35,092 nt of DNA from Phycisphaerales bacterium. Its GTDB lineage: Bacteria > Planctomycetota > Phycisphaerae > SM23-33. The notes below the pieces were generated by a model. The model worked only from the letters and a program-made list of their open reading frames with translations, searched no databases and was not told the origin of the DNA. The position numbers and the translations under genes are program-made. Each line of letters opens with the position of its first letter. The stretch's first letter is position 1. The stretch covers positions 1 through 35,092 of the forward strand of contig JABGPF010000019.1 in assembly GCA_018645065.1 (NCBI GenBank), written 5' to 3'. Positions 4,844 to 31,139 of the stretch are shown here, piece by piece.

Positions 4844-6724
4844 ATGAAATCAGGGATCAATAGAAGAGATTTTTTGAGGGTTACCGGCGCGACGATTGGG
4901 GCAATGTGTCTGGCGCCGGGCGGGTGTGCGGGACCGACGATTTCAGGTAGCAGTTTTACCGCCAAAGATGCACCTCGACCAAATATTGTCCTGATCATGT
5001 CCGACGATATGGGCATCTCGGATATCGGGTGCTACGGTAGCGAAATTAAAACACCTACACTGGACGCACTTGCCGAAAGCGGCGTGCGGTTCAAACAGTT
5101 CTACAACACCGGACGATGCTGCCCAACTCGCGCAGCACTCCTTACGGGCCTGTACTCACACCAGGCCGGTATCGGACACATGCTCAGCGACAAAGGCTAC
5201 GCAGGCTACCGCGGCGAACTGGCGCCAAACAGCGTCACCATCGCCGAGGCTCTCCGACCGGCGGGCTACAGCACGTATATGATCGGAAAATGGCACGTCA
5301 CCACGAACATTCGTGATACTGGGAAGCGTCACAACTGGCCTTTGCAGCGCGGGTTCGATAAGTTCTACGGAATGGTTATCGGTGCGGCGAGCTTTTTCGA
5401 CCCGGCCTCGCTCACGCGCGGTAACAAGAACATCACGCCGGTTAATGACGCCAAGTACAAACCCAAACAGTTCTACTTCACCACGGCGATAACCGACAAT
5501 ACGCTGATGTACCTCAAAGAGCACAAGGCGAAGGAAGAGAAAACCGGCAAGGAAAAACCGTTCTTCGCCTACGTGGGCTACACCGCGGCCCACTGGCCGA
5601 TGCACGCGCTACCCGAAGATATCGCCAAGTACAAAGGCTGCTACGATAAAGGCTGGGACGAACTCCGCAAAACCCGCCACAAGAAGATGATCGATATCGG
5701 ACTGGTCGAAAAGGAATGGGGCATTACTCCGCGCGACCCGAAGGTTCCGGCGTGGGAAAGCCTCTCGGATGCGAAAAAGAAAGTGCAGCCCACGCGGATG
5801 GAGGCTTACGCCGCGATGGTCGACTGCATGGATCAGGGCATCGGCAAGATCGTCGCAGAGTTGAAGGCCCAGGGCAAATACGACAATACGCTGTTCCTGT
5901 TCTTACAGGACAACGGCGGTTGCGCCGAGCCGTTCGGCCTGTGCGAAGAGACAATCCCGCCGATGGACACCAAGGAGCGCGTGCCAGCGCTGGACCCGGA
6001 TCATTTGCAGTTTAACCTGGCGCCTAACTGGACTCGCGACGGTAAGCCGATTCATCGCGGAGCGAATGTTGTGTCTGGTCCGGCGACTACGTATATCGCC
6101 TGCGGGCGTGAGTGGGCAAACGCTCAGAACACACCGTTCAGACTCTACAAACACTGGGAGCACGAGGGCGGGATCGCATCACCGCTGATAGCGTCGTGGG
6201 GCAATTTGTTCAAGAAGCACGGCGCCAAGAGTGGCGGGTGGGTCCAGGGACCCGGACACCTGATCGACTTGATGGCCACCTGCGTAGACGTAGCCGGCGC
6301 CACGTATCCGCAGAAACGCAAGAATGTGCCCGTAATACCGGCAGAGGGCGAGAGCCTCGTCAAGGCGTTCCTGGGCGAGAAGCTGGATCGCGACACGTTG
6401 TATTGGGAGCACGAGGGTAACTGTGCTGTGCTCAAGGGCGACTGGAAGTTAGTTTCCGACGGTTCGGTTAAGGGCCCTTGGGAACTATACAACCTGCGCA
6501 CAGATCGTTGCGAGATGAAGGACCTGGCCGCAAAGATGCCCAAGAAGGTCGCCGAGTTGAAGAAACTCTGGCAGGCCTGGGCCGAGCGAGCACAGGTGCT
6601 GCCCCTGAACCCTCCGCAACTGGACCCCAGCGAACTGAGGGCGGACATGCTGGAAGGGCAGATTTTCCCCATGGACCCGCGACCCGGCGCTAAGATTATC
6701 CTGCCGAAGAAACCCCAAAAATAA
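4844..6724 (+). CDS. Tat-exported Cys-type sulfatase
   Basis: This is a 626-residue sulfatase of the alkaline-phosphatase-like superfamily, predicted to remove sulfate esters from a polysaccharide outside the cytoplasm. The signal carries a twin-arginine motif (NRRDFLRV) followed by a hydrophobic stretch and GGC, a possible lipobox. The metal-binding pair D54-D55 (MSDDMG) and the signature CCPTR are present. C92 is the first residue of the C-x-P-x-R motif and the one expected to become formylglycine. Further family motifs include GKWH and HWP. ATG 4844 is chosen because AAGGA lies just upstream. The protein is longer than the other two sulfatases here, with inserts in the middle. It is followed after 17 bases by the GH10 gene, so the two are probably one operon. 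The substrate is unknown. Confidence 0.93.
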   Translation: MKSGINRRDFLRVTGATIGAMCLAPGGCAGPTISGSSFTAKDAPRPNIVLIMSDDMGISDIGCYGSEIKTPTLDALAESGVRFKQFYNTGRCCPTRAALLTGLYSHQAGIGHMLSDKGYAGYRGELAPNSVTIAEALRPAGYSTYMIGKWHVTTNIRDTGKRHNWPLQRGFDKFYGMVIGAASFFDPASLTRGNKNITPVNDAKYKPKQFYFTTAITDNTLMYLKEHKAKEEKTGKEKPFFAYVGYTAAHWPMHALPEDIAKYKGCYDKGWDELRKTRHKKMIDIGLVEKEWGITPRDPKVPAWESLSDAKKKVQPTRMEAYAAMVDCMDQGIGKIVAELKAQGKYDNTLFLFLQDNGGCAEPFGLCEETIPPMDTKERVPALDPDHLQFNLAPNWTRDGKPIHRGANVVSGPATTYIACGREWANAQNTPFRLYKHWEHEGGIASPLIASWGNLFKKHGAKSGGWVQGPGHLIDLMATCVDVAGATYPQKRKNVPVIPAEGESLVKAFLGEKLDRDTLYWEHEGNCAVLKGDWKLVSDGSVKGPWELYNLRTDRCEMKDLAAKMPKKVAELKKLWQAWAERAQVLPLNPPQLDPSELRADMLEGQIFPMDPRPGAKIILPKKPQK

Positions 6725-6741
6725 CGCCGGGAGATAAGACG

Positions 6742-8067
6742 ATGACCCGTTTGAACCACGCCGCGACCGTTGCGATTTTAGTGGCTTGTTCGCCCGTGTT
6801 GGCTTGGGCGGCAAGCGATCCGCTTTCGGATAAGGCCGTTGACGCTCGCATCGCCAAACATCGCACAACCGAGGTTACGCTTACTGTTCGCACCGCTGAC
6901 GGCAAGCCGCTGCGCAACGCCGAAGTTACCGTCGAAATGGTGCGCAACAAATTCCTGTTCGGTTCAAATATGTTCGCCTACGATCAGCTCGGTAGTGATG
7001 AGCTTAACGGTAAATACGCCAGGCAGTTTTCCGGGCTGCTGAACTTCGCGACGCTTCCGTTTTATTGGGGTATGTACGAGCATAAAGCCCAACCGGAACG
7101 GCCGACGCAGATCAAACAAGTAACCGCAATGGCCAAATGGTGCAAGGCCAATGGGCTTGTCGCCAAGGGCCATCCGCTTTGTTGGCATGAGGTTCAACCC
7201 AAGTGGCTAAAGGGTAAACCGACTGACGAAGTTATGAAGCTTCAGCTCGGGCGGATTGAGCGTGAGGTTAAGGATTTCGGCGGCCTGATCGAGACGTGGG
7301 ACGTGTTGAACGAAGTTGTAGTGATGCCCAAGTTCAGCCGTAAAGGTCAGACCGCTCTGCGTGACGTTTGCAAGAAAACCGGCCAGGTTGAGCTTATTAA
7401 GCAGTGCTTCGCCGTAGCGAGAAAAACCAACCCCAAAGCCACGCTCCTGCTGAACGATTACCAACTCGGTCGGAGCTACGAGAAGCTCATTGCCGACTCT
7501 CTTGCCGCCGGTGTTAAGATTGATGCGATCGGCCTACAGTCGCACATGCACTCGAAATATCGTGGGGCCAAGTGGGCCTGGGATGTCTGCCAGCGATTCG
7601 CGAAGTTCAAAAAACCGCTGCACTTCACAGAACTTACGATTCTCTCGGGCGATTTGAAGAAAGATGGCGACTGGCACAAGCGTCGCACCGATTGGCATTC
7701 AACGCCCGAAGGCGAAAAACGCCAAGCCGCACAAGTTGTCGAATTCTACCGCCTGCTTTACAGCCATCCGTCGGTCGAGGCGATCACCTGGTGGGATTTC
7801 TCCGACGCGAGATCATGGCAGGGCGCCCCGGCGGGGCTAGTGCGAAAAGACATGTCGCCCAAACCGGCGTACACAGCGTTGCACAAGTTGATCAAAGGCG
7901 AATGGTGGATGACGCCCACGAAATTCAAAACCGACGCCCAGGGCAAAATAACCTTCCGAGGCCACCTGGGAACATACAAAGTCAAAACCCAAACCACCGC
8001 AGCAGGTTTCGATCTACCCAAAGCAGGGAAGGCGGACATCATCGCCAAGCTCAAGAGTATTCGGTAG
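6742..8067 (+). CDS. secreted GH10-family endo-beta-xylanase-like glycosidase
   Basis: This 441-residue protein has a Sec signal (about residues 1-24, ending AWAA) and an N-terminal beta-type segment (TEVTLTVRTADGKPLRNAEV). A GH10 barrel follows. Recognisable GH10 features are GHPLCWHE (143-150), the acid/base glutamate in WDVLNE (E191) and the nucleophile glutamate in HFTEL (E297), with a late WWDFSD segment. GH10 enzymes cut beta-1,4-xylan and related glycans with retention of configuration. No separate carbohydrate-binding module is obvious. A GGGAG site lies upstream and the gene follows the sulfatase by 17 bases. This pairing suggests action on a sulfated, xylose-containing polysaccharide, which is an inference. 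Confidence 0.92.
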   Translation: MTRLNHAATVAILVACSPVLAWAASDPLSDKAVDARIAKHRTTEVTLTVRTADGKPLRNAEVTVEMVRNKFLFGSNMFAYDQLGSDELNGKYARQFSGLLNFATLPFYWGMYEHKAQPERPTQIKQVTAMAKWCKANGLVAKGHPLCWHEVQPKWLKGKPTDEVMKLQLGRIEREVKDFGGLIETWDVLNEVVVMPKFSRKGQTALRDVCKKTGQVELIKQCFAVARKTNPKATLLLNDYQLGRSYEKLIADSLAAGVKIDAIGLQSHMHSKYRGAKWAWDVCQRFAKFKKPLHFTELTILSGDLKKDGDWHKRRTDWHSTPEGEKRQAAQVVEFYRLLYSHPSVEAITWWDFSDARSWQGAPAGLVRKDMSPKPAYTALHKLIKGEWWMTPTKFKTDAQGKITFRGHLGTYKVKTQTTAAGFDLPKAGKADIIAKLKSIR

Positions 8068-8071
8068 GTGT

Positions 8072-8227
8072 GTAACGGCACCGCGGCGACACGCCGCGGC
8101 TCTGTCCATGCGCGTAGTAGCGATAGGACTGGTTGTTAACGTGGATGTGTGCGAATTAATTTTCACACGAACAAGACGCGAGGGTTCTACGGTGTAGAGC
8201 CGCGGCGTGTCGCCGCGGTGCCGTTAC
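8072..8227. repeat. REP-like pair: 32-base perfect inverted repeat
   Basis: The arms at 8072-8103 and 8196-8227 are perfect reverse complements of 32 bases, separated by 92 bases. Each arm itself contains a hairpin with an 8-base stem, CCGCGGCG and CGCCGCGG, around a 3-base loop. Two palindromes in inverted orientation resemble paired REP elements or a small non-autonomous mobile element. They lie between the converging GH10 and antitoxin genes, where they may also act as a two-way terminator or mRNA-stabilising structure. Confidence 0.7.
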
Positions 8228-8245
8228 GGGTGCATGTGGATCATG

Positions 8246-8437
8246 CTACGAACTCCTGCGGCGTGGGATCGGTTTTAGTTTTTTCTCGGTCCCGCCGAGT
8301 GCGGTAAGACGCTTGGCGCTGAAGCGGGCGATCAATGCTTCCAGCCCCATTTGCACCAAGGCGGTTTTCTCCTGTACGCCAGTAAGTTTTGAAGCATGCG
8401 TCAAGACGTCGTCATCAATATTTAGCGTAATTTTCAT
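8246..8437 (-). CDS. VapB-type antitoxin, without adjacent toxin
   Basis: This 63-residue protein begins MKITLNIDDDVLTHASKLTG, the ribbon-helix-helix start typical of the VapB/DUF2191 family. The central helix (KTALVQMGLEALI) is typical too, and a basic tail follows (RRRSS). VapB proteins neutralise a PIN-domain ribonuclease, VapC, normally encoded immediately downstream. Downstream here there is only the REP-like repeat and the opposite-strand GH10 gene, so the toxin is absent and this is an orphan antitoxin. No clear ribosome binding site precedes the ATG. A TTGACT hexamer upstream and AT-rich sequence next to the start suggest a very short leader. The direct repeat GCATAC upstream could be its operator. 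Confidence 0.75.
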   Translation of the reverse strand: MKITLNIDDDVLTHASKLTGVQEKTALVQMGLEALIARFSAKRLTALGGTEKKLKPIPRRRSS

Positions 8438-8485
8438 GAATATAAGTATGCATTCGATATGTATGCGTCAGTCAAGCAAAAACCG

Positions 8486-9829
8486 TTATTTTCGCGGCTT
8501 TGGCATCTTTCGTCTGCGGGCGTCTACTTCTATGAGCATTTCTGCTGCCCATTTTTCGATGGCGGCTTGCATTTCTTTGGCGCGTTTTGGGTGCTTGTCG
8601 ATAATGTTGTTCTTTTCGGCGATATCGGTTTTCAGATCGTAGAGTTGGGCCTTGCCCTTCTTTGCGATCATTTTCCACTGCCCGTCTCGCAGTGCGGTTC
8701 CGAGTTTGGGTTCGTAGCCGAAGAAGATTTTTCGATCGGGGAAATCGGCGCCGTTGAAGATGAGGTCCTTCATGCTGGTCCCGTCGAGTTTGCGGGAGGG
8801 GGGTACTTTAATGCCCACCAGGTCGGTTATCGTCGGCAGCAGGTCCATCCCAACTGTCAGGGCGTCTGTGGTTGTCCCGGGTTTGATTCGTCCAGGCATC
8901 CAGGCGATCGCTCCACCGCGATGTCCGCCTTCGTAATGGCTGAACTTCCCGCCGCGGTAGGGTGCGTTCGACCCGAAACCGGTCGCGCCATTATCGGAGA
9001 AGAAGAACACGAACGTATCTTTCTCGATATCGCACTTTTTGAGCGTATCGAAGATTTCACCGATCCCCTTGTCCATTTCTTCGACCATGATTTTGTATTT
9101 CGGGCGGATCCGATCCCGGTTCCATCGCATGCTCTTGGGGAACGGCTTCCTGTCGGCCACCGTGTCGGCGGGGGTTTGGAAGGGCAGGTGCACCGATTCG
9201 TGAGCAACGTACAGGAAGAACGGTTTGTCCTTGTTGCGTTTGATAAAATCGACGGAATTGCTGGTGATCAGGTGCGTTGAGTAGCCTTTTTGGGGCTCTA
9301 TTTTCAGTCCGTTGAACCATTCCTTAGCGTGATCGTGGTAGTCAATGCACCCGTCCAGGTAGCCGCGGAATTCGTCGAACCCGTGATGGATCGGATTGTT
9401 TTCGAGCTCCTTGCCCAAATGCCACTTACCGAACAATGCCGTGCGATAACCGCCTTGCTTCATCAGGCGAGAGAGCGTTAGTTCCTTCGGCGAGAGGCTT
9501 GGCGTATCGAGGTGGCGGGCCATTACGTCGACGATCCCGACCCGCTGCTGATACCGCCCGGTGAGAAATGCCGCTCGCGTAGGGCTACAGACCGAACTGT
9601 TGGTGTGGAAGTCGGTGAACGTCAGGCCCTCTTTGGACATGCGTTTAATGCGGGGTGTTTTGATCCATCCGTCGAATATAGTGGTGTCGGCGTTGCCCAG
9701 ATCGTCGGCAAGGATGACAATGACGTTGGGTTTGCGTTTCCCATTGGCGGCCCGCAGCGTAGCGGCTGGGAGCAGCGAAAGACCGGCAGCGCCGAGTCCG
9801 ATAGTCTGGATAAATTTTCGTCTGTTCAT
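8486..9829 (-). CDS. exported Cys-type sulfatase
   Basis: This 447-residue sulfatase has a Tat-like signal (MNRRKFIQTIGLGAAGLSLL). The metal-binding D42-D43 (ILADDLG) and the modification motif CSPTR starting at C81 are present, followed by RAAFLTGRYQQRVG as expected for sulfatases. GKWHLG and a late FFFSDNGA segment are also present. ATG 9829 is chosen because AAAGGA sits just upstream; a TTG at 9844 is the only earlier start. The protein ends in a basic tail. It is compact, close to the usual length for arylsulfatase-like polysaccharide sulfatases, and differs strongly from the other two copies in the window, so it probably has a different substrate. It lies 48 bases upstream of the antitoxin start on the same strand. 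Confidence 0.93.
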   Translation of the reverse strand: MNRRKFIQTIGLGAAGLSLLPAATLRAANGKRKPNVIVILADDLGNADTTIFDGWIKTPRIKRMSKEGLTFTDFHTNSSVCSPTRAAFLTGRYQQRVGIVDVMARHLDTPSLSPKELTLSRLMKQGGYRTALFGKWHLGKELENNPIHHGFDEFRGYLDGCIDYHDHAKEWFNGLKIEPQKGYSTHLITSNSVDFIKRNKDKPFFLYVAHESVHLPFQTPADTVADRKPFPKSMRWNRDRIRPKYKIMVEEMDKGIGEIFDTLKKCDIEKDTFVFFFSDNGATGFGSNAPYRGGKFSHYEGGHRGGAIAWMPGRIKPGTTTDALTVGMDLLPTITDLVGIKVPPSRKLDGTSMKDLIFNGADFPDRKIFFGYEPKLGTALRDGQWKMIAKKGKAQLYDLKTDIAEKNNIIDKHPKRAKEMQAAIEKWAAEMLIEVDARRRKMPKPRK

Positions 9830-10019
9830 AATGTTCCTTTTCAAGTTGACGACAGTTTACCCTATTACCGCTGGGGCACGCACGTTAAATTATGATTGTC
9901 GATCCGATTGCGTTCCATTGCCTGCAGGTTTTCCCTTGCCATCGGATTATTGGTGTTCGAGAATTGAAGCGCCGGTGGCGTCGGATATTGAATTACCCGT
10001 ATTAGCGGAGAGAACGACT

Positions 10020-10211
10020 ATGATATTTGCTTCCACGTTGGAGGTTTTCGAGCGTCTGGCAATCCCGATCGGTATTGGATTAGGCGTTCTGCTAACCCTG
10101 CTTATCCCTGCGTTCCGACGAAACTTCACCGACAGTTACAAGAAGGGTAAGCAAATGCGGGAGCGATTAACCGGAAAGGACTCCCAGGAAGACCAGGGAG
10201 ACTCCAATTGA
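10020..10211 (+). CDS. small single-pass membrane protein
   Basis: This 63-residue protein begins with a short amphipathic segment and then one membrane helix (LAIPIGIGLGVLLTLLIPAF). A strongly charged cytoplasmic-type tail follows (SYKKGKQMRERLTG) and then an acidic end. GGAGAG about eight bases upstream supports ATG 10020. An open frame continues upstream but without a good start or a natural protein pattern. The function is unknown. It stands alone between the divergent sulfatase gene at 8486-9829 and the convergent gene at 10258-10473. Confidence 0.55.
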   Translation: MIFASTLEVFERLAIPIGIGLGVLLTLLIPAFRRNFTDSYKKGKQMRERLTGKDSQEDQGDSN

Positions 10212-30018: not shown

Positions 30019-30762
30019 TCACTGTTTACTGATAACTACCTTTCCGCCGTTGGCCAGAATTTCCTTCAACGCTGCTTCGGCGTCTTTCGGTTTGAAACCC
30101 CATGGACCGCGTTTGCTGTGGTAGGCGACTTTACCGTCGATATCGACCACGCAGAGACGATCGGGCGCTCCACCGTAGGCGGCGTCGACTTTATTGTCGA
30201 TCCCGTCGACCACGCAGGGGATAGTCATTTTGAGCCCGTCGCGGCAGGCCTTGGCGACTTTCGCTCGCTCCTGGAATGTCTTGGGCTGCTTGAAAATCAC
30301 GCCGTCTTTAACGTTCTGCCTGGTCTGCCATCCGTCGCTGGGGTGCGCTTCGCGAATGTAGACCATCAGGAATTGTGCTTTTTTCCCGTACTCCTTGTAC
30401 AGGGCTTCCAGGCCGCCAGCGACGGGCCTGAAAGGATGTCACGTATAGCTCGCGAATATCAGATAAACCGGCTGCTTTCCGCGGAAGGACGATAGTTTTA
30501 TCTTCCCTTTCGCCGGTTGCGTCGCCGGTTGGCTGGTCGGTTTGGCGGTTGGCTTGGCCTTCATTGCGACTGCGTGTTCGAGTGTGTACAGCTCGAAGTC
30601 GGGGGCGAGTTGCCCGATTTTTAATGCTACATCCACGCGTTTTGGGCGTTTCTTACGCGCGGGCGCCTTCTTGGCTGCGCCGGGGGCGACAATGCAAATC
30701 GACGCGATCGCCAACATGCATACTACGCCAGCCGACAGCAGTTTTGCTCTTTTCGTTATCAT
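30019..30762 (-). CDS. iodothyronine-deiodinase-like selenoprotein (in-frame TGA = Sec108)
   Basis: One open frame of 248 codons is interrupted only by a TGA at 30441-30439. Reading it as selenocysteine gives a 247-residue exported thioredoxin-fold protein. The N-terminus is a signal (MITKRAKLLSAGVVCMLAIA) with a basic linker, followed by GQLAPDFELY and a Thr/Pro/Lys-rich insertion. The active-site segment is YLIFASYT-U-HPFR, which corresponds to FGSCT-U-PPF of deiodinases. Later VYIREAHPSDGW (133-145) matches the deiodinase segment VYIEEAHxSDGW containing a conserved His. In animals these enzymes remove iodine reductively; the bacterial substrate is unknown and peroxiredoxin-like activity is possible. 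A ribosome binding site (GGAG) precedes ATG 30762, and the PilZ gene lies 25 bases upstream. A conventional caller would split this into two genes. Confidence 0.88.
30409..30441 (-). promoter_or_regulatory. Sec codon and candidate bacterial SECIS hairpin
   Basis: After the TGA (30441-30439) and eight bases, CAGGCC (30430-30425) pairs perfectly with GGCCTG (30414-30409) around a 10-base loop beginning C-G. A stem-loop shortly downstream of the UGA with a G in the first two loop positions fits the general bacterial SECIS model, which is bound by SelB. The fold is judged by eye only. Confidence 0.6.
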
Positions 30763-30787: not shown

Positions 30788-31120
30788 TTATGCTTCGATT
30801 GGCAGGTGCATATGCTGGGTGAACTGCAACGCCAGGCCGATCAGCTCGTTGTTTTCGCAGTAATCCTGACGAAGCACGGTTGCGTTGGCGGCGAACCCTT
30901 CCATCTGGTGGTCCGGACCGGTGTCGGGAATTGAGAATGCGACGTTCACGTTTTTGGCGTCTTTGACGCTCTCGTGATCGACCGTCACGTAGGCTCCGCC
31001 GTGCGACAGGTCGGCGGTGTCGGCTTTGACGAGCACCTGCCCGCCACGGCCGAACAGTGTTATCGGGCAGGTCAGCTTGTGTCTTTTATGCTGCCTTCGT
31101 TCGTTTGAGCGGTTATCCAT
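30788..31120 (-). CDS. PilZ-domain protein
   Basis: This 110-residue protein has the PilZ-type start RRQHKRHKLTCPI, in which an RxxxR-like basic cluster is followed about 25 residues later by DLSHGGAYV. That corresponds to the D/NxSxxG motif that together with the Arg residues binds cyclic di-GMP. The rest is a beta-barrel pattern (ANATVLRQDYCENNELIGLAL). ATG 31120 is chosen because AAGGA lies seven bases upstream; a TTG at 31126 is the only earlier start. PilZ proteins act as c-di-GMP receptors. The gene is 25 bases before the selenoprotein gene, which suggests co-transcription. Confidence 0.85.
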   Translation of the reverse strand: MDNRSNERRQHKRHKLTCPITLFGRGGQVLVKADTADLSHGGAYVTVDHESVKDAKNVNVAFSIPDTGPDHQMEGFAANATVLRQDYCENNELIGLALQFTQHMHLPIEA

Positions 31121-31139
31121 TCGCAATTCCTTCTAACCG

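Follow-up and report, generated by a model that had tools for sequence, protein, structure and literature searches.

The minus strand of a contig from a Phycisphaerales bacterium carries, at 30019..30762, a deiodinase-like gene of 247 residues interrupted by an in-frame UGA (30439..30441) at codon 108. The stretch of DNA analysed, 35,092 nt in length, is referred to here as the window. We are highly confident that this gene encodes one exported or membrane-anchored selenoprotein with a thioredoxin fold, belonging to the bacterial deiodinase-like family, in which the UGA would be decoded as selenocysteine (Sec). This confidence covers the selenoprotein claim, and the function is graded separately below.

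The reading frame and its family

The frame running from the ATG at 30762 to the stop UGA at 30021..30019 (minus strand) comprised 247 codons, had a Shine-Dalgarno-like GGAG a short way upstream, and had the UGA at codon 108 as its sole internal interruption, with no frameshift. Under translation table 11 it was divided into two minus-strand ORFs, of 107 residues (30439..30762) and 115 residues (30019..30366). The original prediction had described these two apparent genes as a single frame split by a TGA, and its coordinates were exact. It had also placed the TGA at the catalytic position of deiodinases, and the residues surrounding codon 108 (SYT-U-HPF), as well as the EAHPSDGW motif further downstream (YIREAHPSDGW), were indeed found in the frame.

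An N-terminal hydrophobic stretch (residues 8-28, 30679..30741, minus strand) is a putative signal peptide or membrane anchor. Its mean hydropathy was 2.6 across residues 8-26, it was preceded by K/R residues, and it was also present in the nearest relative (L071). The protein had been predicted to be exported, which fits this stretch, as does membrane anchoring. At the other end of the gene, the terminal UGA (30019-30021) was followed, 15 nt on, by the hairpin GCGGGGC-GUU-GCCCCGC, which is probably a terminator-like structure. We also considered whether the terminal UGA, with this GUU-loop hairpin after it, might encode a second Sec, but the nearest relative has no UGA end there, and the codon was therefore taken as a normal stop.

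A PilZ-domain gene (30788..31126, minus strand; PF07238, 1.7e-9; likely start ATG 31120) preceded the deiodinase-like gene by 25 nt in the same orientation and is probably co-transcribed with it. The predicted linkage to PilZ thus exists, but beyond the window it was seen in the nearest relative alone (L071/L054) and does not extend past the genus. It is consequently uninformative on the general function of the family, and we rejected it as a functional clue.

With TGA read as U, the check proposed originally, the protein matched PF00837 (T4_deiodinase) at 8e-29, with 101.1 bits against a cut-off of 27, and the match crossed the UGA. The NCBIfam deiodinase family NF038285 was matched at 6.7e-59, its 200.1 bits being under the cut-off of 250, and over the C-terminal half of the model only (positions 190-341). 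PF08534 (peroxiredoxin/redoxin) scored 25.3 bits, under its cut-off of 26.6, and PF00578 was also just under. The PDB sequence matches were the catalytic cores of mouse Dio3 (4tr3, 2.8e-18) and Dio2 (9h48). An AlphaFold2 model (pLDDT 86) gave Dio2 (9h48, 3.1e-13) and Dio3 (4tr3, 1.3e-12) as its best Foldseek matches, followed by exported ResA/DsbE.

The protein shares with the known bacterial deiodinase-like selenoproteins the PF00837 domain, a UGA at the catalytic position, a bacterial SECIS just downstream and the existence of Cys homologues. Unlike the usual members, it is a short, putatively exported form without EF-hands, and has UHPF instead of UPPF or UGPF. It has the C-terminal catalytic domain in common with the EF-hand/deiodinase fusions reported in PMC9402790, which probably correspond to NF038285 (347 aa), but lacks the N-terminal half. 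With Dio2 and Dio3 it shares the thioredoxin fold, the catalytic Sec, T-U-x-P-F, EAHPSDGW and the Ser-Thr-Tyr-Glu-His relay, while its SECIS is of the bacterial kind and lies inside the coding region. Peroxiredoxins and redoxins (PF08534, PF00578) resemble it in their thioredoxin-fold core, single redox residue and distant candidate resolving Cys, but the window protein falls below both Pfam cut-offs and has the deiodinase-specific EAHPSDGW loop.

The UGA codon, the hairpin and the selenocysteine machinery

By surveying the phylum, searching relatives and scanning named genomes, we collected 113 distinct homologues possessing the core motif, with the catalytic residue left free. In the contig search, an alignment query retrieved homologues and a single-protein query retrieved none. 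The catalytic codon was TGA in 97 of the homologues, TGC or TGT in 16 and any other codon in none, so that position 108 was always Sec or Cys, as the original prediction proposed to check. The nearest relative, an independently assembled Phycisphaerae metagenome-assembled genome (79% identity) whose affiliation puts the window in Planctomycetota, kept UGA at the same codon. Between the two genes dN/dS was 0.06 before the UGA, a rough figure because dS there was near saturation, and 0.13 after it. The gene is under purifying selection on both sides of the UGA.

Synonymous divergence from L071 was about 2.7 upstream of the UGA but only 0.70 downstream of it (30019-30438), lower than the 1.3 to 3.9 of neighbouring genes. 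An antisense frame was open in both the window and L071. An antisense gene was considered as a reason for the low dS and set aside, since open antisense frames are common with such codon usage. Eight distant homologues from the same class (L058, L060, L061, L062, L063, L064, L066 and L068) carried Ser, Ala or Glu in place of the catalytic residue, or lacked a Cys/Sec at this site. Nearly all were in genomes without selA, an apparent loss of the redox residue.

A SECIS-like stem-loop just downstream, with a G early in its loop, had been predicted, and computed folding recovered it at 30405..30434 (minus strand). It consisted of a 10-bp stem with one bulged pyrimidine (C, 30424), a 3-bp upper stem and an apical loop GCU (30420..30418). 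In the minimum free energy structure the G was first in the loop and the uppermost stem was marginal. Folded within a segment of 45 nt, the hairpin had an energy of -18.8 kcal/mol and a z of -2.2, 6/200 shuffles were as stable, and an equally stable downstream fold followed only 9/942 TGA trinucleotides in the window (1%). Taken alone it was only moderately unusual, with a z of -1.8 when the downstream codons were redrawn among synonyms and the fold compared with expectation. Rfam searches of the window and of the hairpin returned no match to a SECIS family. Applied to the homologues, the same codon-shuffle test gave a mean z of -0.95 in Sec forms (p 1e-10) and -0.06 in Cys forms (p 0.56), a difference with p 6e-4, all of these p-values ignoring kinship among the sequences. 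RNA folding beyond codon choice thus accompanies the UGA in Sec homologues and is absent from Cys homologues. The apical loop in Sec forms mostly started 16-17 nt past the UGA, and G occupied one of the first two loop positions in 78/97 Sec forms vs 8/16 Cys forms.

Absence of the Sec machinery from the genome had been named as a potential refutation, and this refutation fails. Contig C102 of the window's genome carried selA (3.7e-156), selB (2.3e-96), selD (3.1e-100) and tRNA-Sec (selC, 72.3 bits), all within about 8 kb. The anticodon of the tRNA was UCA (ARAGORN) and the SelB protein had winged-helix domains. In known SelB proteins these domains bind SECIS RNA. Within the class sample, selA was found in 11/11 genomes with a UGA-type deiodinase vs 1/11 with a non-UGA homologue (p 3e-5), and in the phylum sample in 89/96 UGA-type genomes vs 150/296 (p 3e-15); these counts were tallied by hand from the matches listed. 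The 7/96 UGA-type genomes without a strong selA match were mostly incomplete assemblies. UGA-type deiodinase genes therefore track selA across genomes.

Several further features were recorded around the sel genes. In three other assemblies (G393:C90, G171:C2 and G109:C9), though not in the window's own, a deiodinase-like gene and selA were separated by about 6-11 kb. On C102 (G000:C102, region L151), SelD was encoded in a 585-residue frame (7077-8834) which also included an AhpD core domain at residues 509-559, a SelD-AhpD fusion. A gene for a ResA-like thiol-disulfide oxidoreductase (9118-10176) adjoined selD, and the ORF lying between selB and selD (5711-6904, 397 residues) matched no NCBIfam family.

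Two readings dispense with Sec altogether. The UGA could have arisen by nonsense mutation or by an error in sequencing, the gene being a pseudogene or the codon really TGC or TGT. The assembly is indeed a draft of 529 contigs and broken copies occur in the family, such as the family-level relative L067 (G394:C241), in which the UGA is joined by an in-frame TAG six codons on, through gene decay or an assembly error. The recurrence of the same UGA in an independent genome and of TGA in 97 homologues excludes sequencing error, and the low dN/dS on both sides and the excess of hairpins in Sec forms only leave this reading as a whole very improbable. It is just as improbable that the UGA ends one protein and a second restarts at Met133 (ORF 30366..30019). 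Each half is an open frame and has a possible start, but the restart would fall inside a core strand (residues 130-135) of what AlphaFold2 predicts, with high confidence, to be one domain, the Sec residue would be lost, and Cys homologues run through this point as single proteins. For the selenoprotein reading, we envisage that the hairpin, within 34 nt after the UGA, would recruit SelB with Sec-tRNA(UCA), because of which the ribosome would insert selenocysteine at UGA 108.

Catalytic residues and possible function

The deiodinase relay and loop edge (Y135, E138 and H140 plus PSDG, residues 135-144) were encoded at 30331..30360 (minus strand), and Y135, E138 and H140 were invariant in the 113 homologues and Dio2/Dio3. 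Relative to the proton relay described in PMC11592359, the window protein kept Ser105, Thr107, Tyr135, Glu138 and His140, and its Arg218 corresponds to Dio3 Arg275. The second relay His (Dio2 His182) was replaced by Pro160, with Pro in 100/113 homologues. The proximal Cys of Dio1/Dio3 was replaced by Tyr106, and Ile181 occupied the column of the distal Cys of Dio1-3 (PMC9141512). With one relay His changed to Pro and the distal Cys missing, thyroid-hormone chemistry is not supported by the sequence.

The window protein has instead a cysteine, Cys173 (30244..30246, minus strand), in a helix predicted by the AlphaFold2 model (residues 163-176). Cys was present at 173 in 95/113 homologues and at 174 in 11 more, the residue being Leu in Dio2/Dio3. 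The three homologues possessing the proximal Cys (SCTU, C106; L040, L117 and L138) all fell among the 7 without the helix Cys (helix Cys 105/112; p 1.5e-4), and they sit in separate parts of the tree. From this pattern we infer that the helix Cys, a candidate resolving cysteine, resolves the oxidised Sec. The near-invariance of the helix Cys and its absence from proximal-Cys homologues suggest an exported, peroxiredoxin-like Sec/Cys redox enzyme.

In such an enzyme the Sec selenolate would attack an oxidised small molecule, for example a peroxide; a carbon-halogen bond is another possible target. Cys173 would then resolve the oxidised Sec as a selenenylsulfide, which an extracytoplasmic thiol carrier would reduce. 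We give this peroxiredoxin-like cycle on a deiodinase scaffold, judged from conservation, about an even chance of being the function. The main rival is a true dehalogenase acting in the envelope, where it would strip aryl halides of iodide or bromide in the way that animal deiodinases deiodinate thyronines. Dio2 and Dio3 are the nearest proteins by sequence and fold and most of the Dio relay is kept, including the counterpart of Dio3 Arg275, but the Pro at the second relay His, the missing distal Cys and the different function expected in bacteria by PMC1088965 make this reading rather unlikely. Slightly less likely again is a thiol-disulfide oxidoreductase, a ResA/DsbE-like exported reducer of disulfides in envelope proteins. 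ResA and DsbE were the best folds after Dio2/Dio3 and this genome has a ResA-like gene near its sel genes, but neither CxxC nor UxxC was found, position +3 after the Sec being Phe or Tyr in 113/113 homologues. The reviews PMC9312934 (2022) and PMC13188914 (2026), which also include bacterial deiodinase-like selenoproteins, give the motif as UxxC, unlike what was found here.

Returning to the peroxiredoxin-like reading, a broader and more tentative proposal is that the bacterial deiodinase-like selenoproteins may form an exported peroxiredoxin-like group with its own resolving Cys at 173/174, from which the SCTU lineages would have lost the helix Cys, leaving two exchangeable resolving routes on one scaffold. 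We found no earlier description of this mutually exclusive Cys pattern, and our literature search found no reported function for any bacterial deiodinase-like protein.

Distribution and history of the family

PF00837 was detected in 118 of the 392 genomes of the phylum survey, nearly all with one internal TGA, and a UGA-type copy was present in 96 (about a quarter). Judging by record titles, the family occurs in Planctomycetota, Acidobacteriota, Verrucomicrobiota, Chloroflexota, Armatimonadota, Myxococcota and others. In a tree of 114 rows the Cys forms required two changes, giving a group of 15 and a singleton, each nested inside Sec forms. This suggests that the Sec form is ancestral to the Cys forms in the family. 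Animal deiodinases were weakly placed in this tree.

The original prediction had called the family only sparsely known, which is contradicted both by its frequency in the sampled planctomycete genomes and by earlier reports. Bacterial deiodinase-like selenoproteins with a bacterial SECIS were described from the Sargasso Sea in 2005 (4 Sec and 6 Cys sequences, PMC1088965) and from the GOS data in 2008 (22 Sec and 21 Cys sequences, PMC2398784). A published tie of these proteins to Planctomycetota was not found in a search that left outside its scope the supplement of PMC4807772, which covers the selenoproteins of two planctomycetes.

The family is probably under-counted, because ordinary gene callers split the UGA-type deiodinase gene in two. 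The mutually exclusive Cys positions offer a concrete, testable hypothesis for how the oxidised Sec may be recycled, a point that is open for the animal deiodinases (PMC9141512).
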